This document shows, in pieces, positions 19,438-50,285 of a stretch of DNA of 64,000 nt; positions within the stretch are counted from its first letter, which is position 1, and each line of letters begins with the position of its first letter. Origin of the DNA: Candidatus Chlorohelix allophototropha. Its GTDB lineage: Bacteria > Chloroflexota > Chloroflexia > Chloroheliales > Chloroheliaceae. Made by a program: the position numbers and the translations under genes. The stretch lies in NCBI RefSeq assembly GCF_030389965.1, contig NZ_CP128400.1, positions 620,001-684,000 on the forward strand. The letters are read 5' to 3'. The notes below the pieces were generated by a model. That model was not told the origin of the DNA. It made no database searches and saw only the letters and a list, made by a program, of their open reading frames with translations.

Positions 19438-19486
19438 GGCTCAAAAGCAGCTAGAATGTGGTCTGGTCATATAGGGGGCATTCCAA
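19438..19486 (+). repeat. Right arm of the 49-bp IS3 inverted repeat
   Basis: Reverse complement matches 17981-18029 with about five mismatches. It probably represents the other end of the same IS3 element, whose interior was replaced by the IS256 copy. Confidence 0.7.
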
Positions 19487-19811
19487 TCTCCCCGTTACGG
19501 TCTCTGGGCACGGCTATTTCGGTTTCACCGACGCTGGAGCGGTTGATTTTGCCGTTGCGCGAGTTGCCACTGTTTCGACCCGCCGCTTCGTATTTGTCGT
19601 AGCCGAGGTGGTCGGTGATTTCAGCTTCCAACAATTTTTCGAGGGTATGGCCGAAAACCCTGCAAAGGATGCCTTCTTTGCCGAAGAAATCGTCCATACT
19701 TTTGGCACTGCCCAACTGTTGTTGGATTAACTCCATGGGTGGTAAGGATGCCTGAATAATCTCCTGGATCTGCTTCTTTTTTGAATTCGAGTTCTGGTTG
19801 CTGTCTGGCAT
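19467..19811 (-). pseudogene. 5' fragment of a second IS256-family transposase
   Basis: About 107 genuine residues: LPPMELIQQQLGSAKSMDDF, FGKEGILCRVFGHTLEKLLE, HLGYDKYEAAGRNSGNSRNG and VPRDRNGE, a diverged relative of the IS256 transposase at 18151-19319. The frame is cut at the IS3 end at 19486 (the last few residues are read from the IS3 end). Its own terminal sequence, GTGTACATTAGTGTGTGTAA on the minus strand, is at about 19877-19896. Between 19897 and 20010 a short minus-strand frame is visible but not recognised. Confidence 0.8.
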
Positions 19812-20010
19812 AAATGGTTTTCTCCTTATTAGCTGGTTTTAATTGCTTTATTGTAGCAGCAGCTTTTTCCATTTACACACACTAATGTACACCCTCATTT
19901 ACGGTGTTGCGCCGCTTCAGCCTTCGGTAATCGGGATACACCACGAAGCCCTAGTAGCTTCTTCTGTCCGACCAGATAATGGCTTTGGTGGTCAGATAAC
20001 ACCATAGATT

Positions 20011-23442: not shown

Positions 23443-23639
23443 ACCTTTTGAAAACCTAGCAAATTTGTATTACGACTAAGCAGTTATTTGGATGCCCTAC
23501 TTACAATTATACTTCCTATTGGAATACTTCCGGCTGGAAAAAGTAAAGGCTAGGAGAAGTCCCACGAAGAAATGTGGAGATGGGGTAAGGCGTAAAGAGA
23601 ATTCCGAAAGCGCGAAGCGCCGCCCTAAAAAGTGGTAGT
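23443..23639. other. Intergenic leader of the hybrid kinase gene
   Basis: AT-rich upstream region followed by a purine-rich stretch (AGGAGAAGTCCCACGAAG near 23550). No gene, promoter match or repeat is convincing. Confidence 0.3.
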
Positions 23640-23689
23640 CAGCCTATTGGCTCGTAATATAATGGGTTTGCGGGGTTTATTAGCCCGGT

Positions 23690-23835
23690 CAGGCTACTGG
23701 GTAGGTGCTGCGGGGCGGTTCTTTCAACAACAATGAAGCTAATGTGTCCTGTGTGTACCACAGCAACAACAACCCTAACAACAGTAACAACAATATTGGG
23801 TTTCGGTTGGTGGTGTGTTCCGATGACCTGTCTAA
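23690..23835 (+). other. Candidate orphan DGR template repeat (or relic variable region)
   Basis: Read in one frame from 23705 the DNA gives [15 protein letters not shown], then [11 protein letters not shown] and IGFRLVV, the consensus of the variable C-terminal end of formylglycine-generating/C-type-lectin-fold target proteins of diversity-generating retroelements. The positions expected to vary are almost all Asn encoded by AAC or AAT, as in unmutated template repeats. A TAG stop lies directly before the first codon (23702-23704), so this is not the end of a working target gene. No DGR-type reverse transcriptase or Avd gene is visible nearby. Confidence 0.55.
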
Positions 23836-24098
23836 CCTTCAGAGGGCGCAATCCTTAAAACGGGTTGAGCTTGCTTCCAGAAATGTCGTGCGATTACGGT
23901 TTCACGTCCGAGGAGAAGGCGGCAGGATAGCGCCGGCGGGTCTGGTCTGCGTGTGCAAACGCCAGGCACATATCTAGGGCTTGGGTACAGTCCAGTTTTA
24001 GCGTGCCCTAAAATGATGCAGGTATTTTAAGCTTGTGGCTTATTCGGGCGAACTAAACGGTCACGAATTACTTCGAACACTCCCAGTGTTGAAATTAT

Positions 24099-24507
24099 AA
24101 AATGTAATGATTAGGACTAGATCGGACACGTATGGTAAAATCAACACAAGCATTATCAGAAGGAGTGTCCGATGTCAGTCGAACGAAAAATCATCAAAGG
24201 GCGAGTAGGACTGCTGAAGCTAGCCGAGGAGTTAGGCAATGTCAGCCAGGCCTGCAAAGTCCTGGGCTATTCCCGCGATACTTTCTACCGCTACATGGTT
24301 GGAGTATTACAATCGGGAGCGCGCGCATATTGGGCGGTATTGTTACGGCAAGACCCCTTTACAAACTTTTCGAGATAGCAAGCACTTGGCAGATCAGAAA
24401 CGATTGGATAAACTGTTAGAAACTACCGCCACCAGAAGTCAGGCGGTTACTACCCCTCTTGTCAGTTAAGTCGCTAGTATCCGATCTAGTCCTGTCTACT
24501 ACATTTT
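24099..24507 (+). mobile_element. IS481-family internal deletion derivative (MITE-like)
   Basis: Imperfect 31-bp inverted ends at 24099-24129 and 24477-24507 (six mismatches; the inner AGGACTAGATCGGA block is identical). Inside, an N-terminal transposase piece (VSQACKVLGYSRDTFYRY) is joined directly to a C-terminal piece (EYYNRERAHIGRYCYGKTPL, QTFRDSKHL), so roughly three quarters of the transposase gene has been lost. Confidence 0.75.
24172..24469 (+). pseudogene. IS481 transposase, N- and C-terminal ends fused by internal deletion
   Basis: The first 40 codons from the ATG at 24172 encode the helix-turn-helix of an IS481 transposase. The frame then shifts at the deletion point near 24298 to the C-terminal end, which reads on to the stop at 24467-24469. 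The whole catalytic core is missing, so the product cannot transpose. The ends may still be moved by a full-length relative elsewhere in the genome. Confidence 0.75.
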
Positions 24508-47813: not shown

Positions 47814-50285
47814 GTGCGCCGTATAGACGCTTGTTGGATACCTTTTAGAGAAAGGAGCGGTTGAGAGTAACAGACCGTTAGGACGGTGGCTTACTCGATG
47901 GGGAAAACCCAGACAGGACAGTAGCATGCCACAAAACCTCAGCAGACTGAAGACGTTTAGGTCTGGTTGAGGGTGTCCTGCTCGCTATGGTGAAGCTGAA
48001 TTGCCGAACCTAATCTACCAACGGTGGTAAGGAACACTCAGCGTTAATAACGTTTATCGCGCTGTCACCGAAATATGCATCAGATTACGAGGGATGCAAA
48101 ACACTCTCTTCGGTGAGTGATGGGTAATGAACCCATTCAAGGAGATGAAAGGGCACCTAAGGCGAGCTAGAACGTCTAACAAGTGGGATGCGGGATGACC
48201 TACGGGTCGCGAGACCTACGGTCACGGAACCCCCATAGTAGTCCGGGCTGAGGAAAACTCAGTACATGGCGAAGGGGCAGCCTTTGAAAGAAGGCCAGAG
48301 TTGACCCTTTGACAAAGGTCAGCAGGGTAGGTGTCGGCGAGTTGAGTATAGAAAGGGGCGCGTGATGCGTGAAGCCCGTAATATCCTCGAACTCATCCAA
48401 AAGCGCGGTACTCAAAACTTACCACTAGAAAGAGTGTATCGCCTTCTCTACAATCCTAATCTCTACCTAATGGCTTACGGTAAGATATATCGGAACAAAG
48501 GAGCCATGACGGCAGGAGCGGATAAAGAAACCGCTGATGGGATGAGCCTGACTAAAATTGAAGCTATCATCGAGAAATTACGTCAGGAGAAATACCATTG
48601 GAAACCAGCCAAACGAGTTTACATTCCACGCAAAGATGGCAAACAGAGACCGCTCGGTCTACAATCTTGGTCGGATAAACTGTTACAAGAAGTAATTCGC
48701 CTCATTCTTGAAGCTTACTATGAGCAAAGTTTCAGCAACTTCTCACATGGATTTCGACCAAAACGAGGTTGTCATACCGCTTTACAACAAATCTATCATA
48801 ATTGGGTTGGCACAGTTTGGTTTATAGAAGGAGATATCTCAAAATGCTTCGAGAGTCTGTCTCATGAAAAGATTGAGGCCAGGCTCAGAGAGGATATTAA
48901 AGATGAGAGGTTTGTTCGGCTCATCAGCCAATTGCTAAAAGCAGGCTACCTGGAAAATTGGCGATGGAATGCCACCTATAGCGGAGCACCGCAGGGTTCA
49001 ATTCTTAGCCCCCTTTTGTCGAACCTACTTTTAGACCAACTGGACAAATGGGTCGAAACTACACTTATTCCAGAATACACCAGGGGCGAACGAAGAAGAC
49101 TTAATCCACAATACGAGAAGATCAAGCACAGTGCCTATTACCAAACTTCCAAAGGGCGAACGGAAATAGGACGCGAACTATGGAAACAGGTTCAAAAACT
49201 GCCTTCGCAAGACCCTGATGATCCAAACTACCGACGTTTAAGATACATTCGGTATTGCGACGACTTTCTATTAGGTTTTATTGGCTCTAAGGCGGAAGCA
49301 GAAGAGATTAAGCGAAAAATCGGAGAGTTTTTAAGCCAGAAATTGGAATTAAAATTATCCGAGGCTAAAACGTTGATCACGCATGCCAAAACCCAAAAAG
49401 CCAACTTTCTCAATTACGAGATACACACAATCCACGAAAACAGTCGGCGCGATACAACTGGTCGTCGTTGTGTCAATGGAAACATTGGCCTCAGAGTGCC
49501 AAAGGAGGTTGTGAAAAGTAAATGCCAGCGTTACAAACAACACAGCCGCAAAGTTTTACAAAGAACGGAACTAATTAACGATAGCGTTTTCACCATCATA
49601 AATCTGTATCGTTATGAGTTTCGAGGGTTAGTCGAATACTACCGACTAGCCTACAACCTCCACACGTTTACCCGATTAGATGGGGTAATGGAAACTTCCT
49701 TAACCAAAACAATAGCGGCAAAACTCAAATTGTCGGTACCTAAAATCTACCAGAAATACCAGACAGAATATGAGTTAGAAGGAAAACGTTACAAAGTCTT
49801 GGAAGAAACCATTGAAAGACCAGGGAAGAAACCGTTGGTAGCACGCTGGGGCGATATTTCACTGAAGTGGGATATTAAAGCCTCGATTGAAGACGAGAAG
49901 AAAGTTTTCAACTGGCCACCTCGAACGGAATTGGTCAAACGACTTTTAGCGGACAAATGTGAAAATTGTGGAGCCAGCGGAAAAGCTGAGCGAATACAAG
50001 TCCATCACATTAGAGCGTTAAAAGAGCTTGAGCGATACCCTGGGCGAGAGAAGCCAGGCTGGGTCAAAGTAATGGCGGCAAGAAAGCGCAAAACTTTAGT
50101 TTTATGTGAAAGTTGCCATCAAGATGTAACCTATGGACGACCATTTCGACGAGTACCGAAGTCCGCGACAGGCTAGACCGATGCTGGAAAGCGGTGTGCA
50201 TTGAAAGATGCCCGCACCGTTTGGGAGAAGGCCGTTGGAAAAGTGCTTTTCTTTGGAAGAGTAACTCGCTGGCGGCCCATCTCAC
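47814..50285 (+). ncRNA. Group II intron with HNH-type intron-encoded protein
   Basis: Begins GTGCG (consensus GTGYG) and ends in AC, directly joining two halves of the transposase codon frame. Length 2472 bases. The first 550 bases are the structured 5' domains. Domain V is visible at about 50186-50224: AGCGGTGTGCATTGAAAGAT with the complementary GCCCGCACCGTTT after it, holding the AGC triad. Domain VI follows to 50285. The reverse transcriptase gene lies in domain IV. Confidence 0.88.
48365..50176 (+). CDS. ltrA: Group II intron reverse transcriptase/maturase with HNH endonuclease
   Basis: 603 residues. RT motifs: RVYIPRKDGKQRPLGLQSWS, SHGFRPKRGCHTALQ, WFIEGDISKCFESLSHEKI, GAPQGSILSPLLSNLLLDQL, and the catalytic RYIRYCDDFLLGF (about residues 294-306). 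The maturase X domain follows (about 380-470), then an HNH nuclease with CENCGASGKAERIQVHHIRA and LVLCESCHQDVTYG. All catalytic residues look intact, so the intron could be mobile. The ATG at 48365 follows AAAGGGG; a GTG directly before it is less likely. It serves splicing and retrohoming of its own intron. Confidence 0.93.
   Translation: MREARNILELIQKRGTQNLPLERVYRLLYNPNLYLMAYGKIYRNKGAMTAGADKETADGMSLTKIEAIIEKLRQEKYHWKPAKRVYIPRKDGKQRPLGLQSWSDKLLQEVIRLILEAYYEQSFSNFSHGFRPKRGCHTALQQIYHNWVGTVWFIEGDISKCFESLSHEKIEARLREDIKDERFVRLISQLLKAGYLENWRWNATYSGAPQGSILSPLLSNLLLDQLDKWVETTLIPEYTRGERRRLNPQYEKIKHSAYYQTSKGRTEIGRELWKQVQKLPSQDPDDPNYRRLRYIRYCDDFLLGFIGSKAEAEEIKRKIGEFLSQKLELKLSEAKTLITHAKTQKANFLNYEIHTIHENSRRDTTGRRCVNGNIGLRVPKEVVKSKCQRYKQHSRKVLQRTELINDSVFTIINLYRYEFRGLVEYYRLAYNLHTFTRLDGVMETSLTKTIAAKLKLSVPKIYQKYQTEYELEGKRYKVLEETIERPGKKPLVARWGDISLKWDIKASIEDEKKVFNWPPRTELVKRLLADKCENCGASGKAERIQVHHIRALKELERYPGREKPGWVKVMAARKRKTLVLCESCHQDVTYGRPFRRVPKSATG

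Follow-up and report, generated by a model that had tools for sequence, protein, structure and literature searches.

Here we describe what is very probably (about 0.88) a decayed copy, truncated by an insertion sequence (IS), of the RNA template of a diversity-generating retroelement (DGR) whose machinery has been lost from the genome of 'Ca. Chlorohelix allophototropha'. The window, that is, the whole analysed stretch of 64,000 nucleotides, lies on C2, one of five replicons (C1-C5, with lengths of 2,961,161, 2,453,413, 375,274, 241,389, and 54,957); closed replicons of 2.96 Mb, 2.45 Mb, 375 kb, 241 kb, and 55 kb are reported for 'Ca. Chlorohelix allophototropha' L227-S17 (PMC10972752). A template repeat (TR) together with variable regions (VRs), differences focused on adenines, a structured 3' RNA, and targets of the FGE fold are all present, and a dedicated reverse transcriptase (RT) and Avd were not found; what remains in the window is thus an incomplete DGR, a remnant.

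The initial annotation had proposed an orphan TR, or else a frozen VR, at 23690-23835, pointing to a translation rich in AAC and AAT codons. The frame reads as described (23705-23821), and alignment to a second TR on the 55-kb plasmid C5 and to 15 VRs identifies the stretch as a non-coding TR with 31 adenines in 118 nt. It is enclosed by a 395-bp copy of a DGR RNA module, larger than the interval first noted, in which a target-downstream flank, a promoter-like site, a 5' leader, the TR, and a 3' RNA domain follow one another (Table 1). The TR and 3' part are also 73% identical to a locus of the relative G004, described below. At the DNA level the stretch matches about 16 further places in the genome (E from 4e-122 to 2e-4), all at the 3' ends of FGE-sulfatase-domain genes except for the plasmid TR copy and flank-only matches. 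The closest of them is not a gene end but the plasmid TR; the window TR is therefore not the only one, as a better-kept copy stands beside a target.

Table 1. Coordinates of the DGR remnant and of neighbouring or related elements (window positions, unless a replicon or locus is named)
Feature	Position	Strand	Evidence
Template repeat (TR), window copy	23705..23822	+	8 differences from plasmid TR in 118 nt
Copy of the full DGR RNA module	23582..23976	+	93% identity to plasmid C5:38747-39138
Promoter-like site TAGTCA-16-TATAAT, upstream of TR	23636..23663	+	pattern scan 10/12
5' leader of TR RNA, conserved GGTCAGGC...GGG block	23664..23704	+	alignment of 13 TR loci
Conserved 3' RNA domain, three hairpins	23875..23967	+	15-sequence alignment; model R1, 87 bits
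Repeated mobile-element end, abutting and truncating the module	23977..24103	.	98% copies at C3:127447-127573 and C2:120625-120751
Remnant of a further insertion sequence	24103..24460	.	84-99% copies in C1 and C2
Probable DGR reverse transcriptase relic (GFVVYPDYRRLKRRNTVN)	19897..19950	-	strand opposite to TR
IS fragment, end abutting RT relic	19486..19895	-	98% copy at C2:86036-86445, same end base
GCGCGAAGCGC-type inverted-repeat stretches	L036:18700-18800; L043:8080-8150; L039:8195-8250; L049:7207-7255		

The plasmid module is located just downstream of the VR of a 1055-aa TIR-NACHT-FGE target gene, and it retains the promoter-like site, the leader, the 3' domain, and a terminator-like hairpin; judged from its sequence, it appears to be the better-kept, nearly intact template. 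Directly after it (L036:19242-19825, corresponding to C5 39242-39825), where many relatives have the RT, we observed a small two-gene module, which we take to be of the DUF433/DUF5615 toxin-antitoxin type. The promoter-like pattern was found once in the scan against 0.7 occurrences expected by chance; the same site is carried by the plasmid copy, and a -10-like hexamer occupies the matching place in most of the aligned relatives. The site may act as the promoter of the TR RNA. An in-frame TAG immediately before the TR (23702-23704), to which the initial annotation attached significance, is indeed present, but it has no diagnostic value, as AAG stands at this point of the plasmid copy. Readings of the TAG as a designed translation block or as the relic of an RT stop codon were rejected on the same ground. 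As to the latter, the RT stop of G004 does sit there, yet the leaders of other relatives have no RT upstream, and the codon is therefore incidental.

The initial annotation called for a search for genes whose 3' ends differ from the stretch at template adenines, and this search was positive. The genome contains 18 FGE-sulfatase matches, and 15 VRs at the 3' ends of FGE-domain genes could be aligned without gaps to the plasmid TR, which served as the reference. Pooled over these VRs, differences from the TR occur at 277 of 465 adenine sites (60%) versus 203 of 1305 other sites (16%). The bias is significant in every VR alone and has a pooled odds ratio of 8 with p 6e-70, the latter being only a guide since the cells come from paralogous targets and thus depend on one another. 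In the VRs, template adenines are replaced by each of the three other bases (A kept 188 times, G 120, T 109, C 48). The cleanest VR, on the plasmid at 19.9 kb, has 15 adenine differences and a single other one in 92 core positions, and that one is the base of the window TR. Many older VRs show 5-17 non-adenine core differences (more than 12 from the plasmid TR in three of them), those at positions 31, 69, 72, and 93 being among the shared ones. At these four columns most VRs have non-adenine bases in common, different from those of both surviving TRs; this suggests that at least one other TR variant, now lost, probably wrote the older VRs.

The target genes with adenine-biased VRs, at least 15 in number, are spread over four of the five replicons. 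In the ten targets scanned, N-terminal TIR, nSTAND1, DUF4062, or protein kinase domains precede the FGE domain; PF03781 was found in every one, with the VR at the C-terminal end of this domain. The putative antigen sensors reported from multicellular bacteria with DGRs have this domain make-up (PMC10907252). Several VRs, including ones with no TR after them, are followed at a distance of about 100-200 bp by a conserved stretch with an inverted repeat of the GCGCGAAGCGC type, which could be a target-site stem-loop or a terminator.

The 3' RNA domain is conserved and folds into three hairpins. In the 15-sequence alignment, which is partly anchored on conserved motifs and supplies both the structure and the counts, the domain has 23 pairs, 11 of them with compensatory change on both sides; 95% of cells are paired versus 33-41% in slid controls, and the covariation score is 0.494 versus 0.222 after shuffling. 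An alignment of 13 loci extends over leader, TR, and 3' domain. The structure is visible only in the alignment: the whole plasmid RNA folded alone was not better than shuffles (z -1.2), and neither the TR region nor the 3' domain had a match in Rfam. Model R1 of the domain matches exactly two copies in the genome, in the window and on the plasmid, and had one other match over 400 Chloroflexota genomes under the stricter filters of large sets, which lose weak matches. The phage BPP-1 DGR has a folded spacer 3' of its TR, to which RT-Avd is recruited and from which cDNA synthesis is primed (PMC12875486); by analogy, the 3' domain may be the counterpart of this DGR spacer.

The same data bear on the nature of the stretch. 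Its in-frame reading, ending in ...GFRLV, resembles the ends of the target genes, as it would in a frozen VR or if a broken FGE target gene had left its conserved coding end here. However, of the 31 adenines in the plasmid TR the stretch keeps 29, whereas the VRs differ at 14-24 of them. Moreover, the flanks consist of a non-coding TR leader and a 3' RNA domain rather than FGE coding sequence, stops lie upstream, and there is no FGE-domain coding sequence directly upstream in frame. The structured 3' domain, to whose model the stretch conforms, follows no VR examined. A frozen VR or coding end is thus very improbable, and of the two possibilities first offered the template is the one that stands. 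Still harder to credit is a chance resemblance of low-complexity sequence to a TR: AAC repeats are simple sequence, but the homology to the plasmid copy extends over 395 bp, beyond the AAC-rich part, and is conserved across genera, RNA structure included.

The window copy shows decay. Five of its eight changes relative to the plasmid TR are not shared by the VRs. At 23745, 23760, and 23783 the plasmid base is kept in 15, 15, and 14 of the 15 VRs, respectively; adenines were gained by the window TR at 23760 and 23783, where the VRs are essentially invariant, and lost from it at 23763 and 23784, where the VRs do vary. At 23707, 23719, and 23754 the window base is the one found in some VRs, and therefore the plasmid TR has drifted too. 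Homology of the module ends and the mobile-element end starts exactly at 23977; the IS remains beyond it include a transposase-like ORF (24172-24378). Both the plasmid copy and G004 have a terminator-like hairpin after the 3' domain, as read by eye; the window copy lacks it. The five private changes and the 3' end lost to an IS show that the window TR is a decayed side copy and not the donor of the existing VRs.

The initial annotation had attributed the isolation of the TR to IS activity. The TR is indeed parted from its targets and RT and borders on an IS end, but the RT is not merely elsewhere. Searches of all five replicons with PF00078, BPP-1 bRT, the G004 RT, and a 16-sequence RT profile found no DGR RT and, besides the probable 54-bp relic, yielded only group II intron RTs: a 623-aa frame in three copies (twice on C1, once on C2), a 561-aa RT on C4, and a fragment at C1:992 kb. 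The C4 protein was rejected as a DGR RT on its QGGVISP motif and HNH-like end, which indicate a group II intron, and the C1 fragment on its group II-like sequence. The RT near 48 kb in the window (48467-49444, plus strand), already recognized as a group II intron RT and not a DGR RT, is one of three genome copies of equal frame length. Avd was not found in the genome with PF22296 (best E 0.2, below the cut-off). Since the replicons are closed, the negative result for RT and Avd is strong, with room left for an element lost before sequencing.

Thus of the RT and Avd genes sought, the genome yielded only a probable relic of the former. This translated 54-bp piece is identical to the G004 RT at 14 of 18 positions and to the RT of another relative, L087, at 16 of 18 (counted by eye against the alignment), and its DNA is 78% identical over 51 bp to a Thermoflexales DGR RT. 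The HMM gave E 0.0017 when window and plasmid were searched, the next non-intron match being at 1.5. The assignment as a DGR RT relic remains probable, given that it covers 18 codons only, is 3.6 kb away from the TR and inverted relative to it, and reaches a genome-wide profile E of only 0.005. Its orientation implies that at least one rearrangement separates it from the TR, and IS ends adjoin both the relic and the TR module.

An intact counterpart exists within the same family. G004 (JACAUC01, 'Ca. Chloroheliaceae' L227-5C MAG, from a Lake 227 (L227) assembly) belongs to another genus and has a full DGR in the order MoxR-like AAA, vWA, FGE target with VR, Avd on the opposite strand, RT, TR, and 3' domain. 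Its loci L073/L086 have the TR leader, TR, 3' domain, terminator-like hairpin, and FGE target type in common with Chlorohelix; they differ in the intact RT and Avd, the RT directly upstream of the TR, and the target in a MoxR-vWA system. About 45 related RTs were found, most of them in MAGs of Chloroflexota; at many of these loci a TR-like repeat stands between the target and the RT. TR placement is variable within this DGR clade, since two relatives have TR and RT on opposite strands (L087:1345-1702 and L088:1338-1684).

Several features agree with known systems. The adenine-directed transfer from TR to VR and, in layout, a structured spacer 3' of the TR (PMC12875486) are shared with the BPP-1 DGR (avd-TR-spacer-brt), whereas BPP-1 has a phage tail target and an intact cassette. 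In cyanobacterial DGRs, as here, one TR serves many remote targets with C-terminal CLec domains, but there the RT is present (PMC7517822). Another parallel is Thiohalocapsa sp. PB-PSB1, where degenerate DGR loci have multiple FGE/CLec targets fused to STAND NTPase and other conflict-system domains, and where loci are duplicated and transposons or MITE-like arrays replace the RT or TR (PMC10907252). IS-driven degeneration of DGR loci is already known from that organism (PMC10907252), and the Chlorohelix remnant is therefore a further case of a known type. In contrast to Thiohalocapsa, which keeps one complete locus per class (PMC10907252), none was found in any replicon of this Chloroflexota phototroph. 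The unusual feature is the lack of a complete DGR locus beside a large set of diversified targets.

From established DGR biology, the following course of events may be proposed. The TR RNA would have been transcribed from its own promoter, bound by RT-Avd via the 3' domain, and copied into cDNA with random bases opposite adenines. The cDNA would then have replaced the 3' ends of TIR, NACHT, nSTAND1, kinase, and DUF4062 sensor genes, acting in trans and across replicons. RT and Avd would have been lost later, probably via an IS-driven rearrangement that left the 54-bp RT scrap in the window; the plasmid TR would have stayed nearly intact while the window copy decayed. The VRs are most likely frozen now. 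Against a loss of the RT, the 19.9-kb plasmid VR has so few non-adenine differences that its writing must have ended recently on the scale of point mutations, which fits complete loss oddly unless the loss was recent, perhaps in culture, or the RT perhaps came from outside.

The last point leads to a DGR that is still active, with RNA from the plasmid TR, the window TR as a spare or minor template, and RT and Avd supplied from beyond the sequenced genome, by a plasmid or phage lost in culture or by another strain in the lake. The retained elements of the plasmid module, a VR almost free of non-adenine differences, and the intact RT-Avd locus in a relative from the Lake 227 assembly are consistent with it. 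On the other hand, RT and Avd are missing from all five replicons, the RNA was not matched in plasmid records (distant blastn), the exact 3'-domain pattern was not found in viral contigs, and the window copy has private changes and no 3' end. We therefore consider continued activity unlikely, and equally doubtful is a more specific version in which a separate element, mobile or variable among strains, brings the RT in and is lost again, and at least 15 immune-like receptors are rewritten in trans from an intact TR RNA. If that were true, the lack of an RT in a closed genome that has an intact TR RNA and a scattered set of diversified receptors would be explained.

Under the preferred reading of a remnant with lost machinery, Chlorohelix presents a DGR after its end: one TR lineage diversified at least 15 sensor genes, and when RT and Avd disappeared the repertoire became fixed. 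Such a genome lets one test whether diversified receptors of conflict systems stay useful once hypermutation stops. In addition, the R1 model of the covarying 3' domain can find templates that are remote from an RT or have none.
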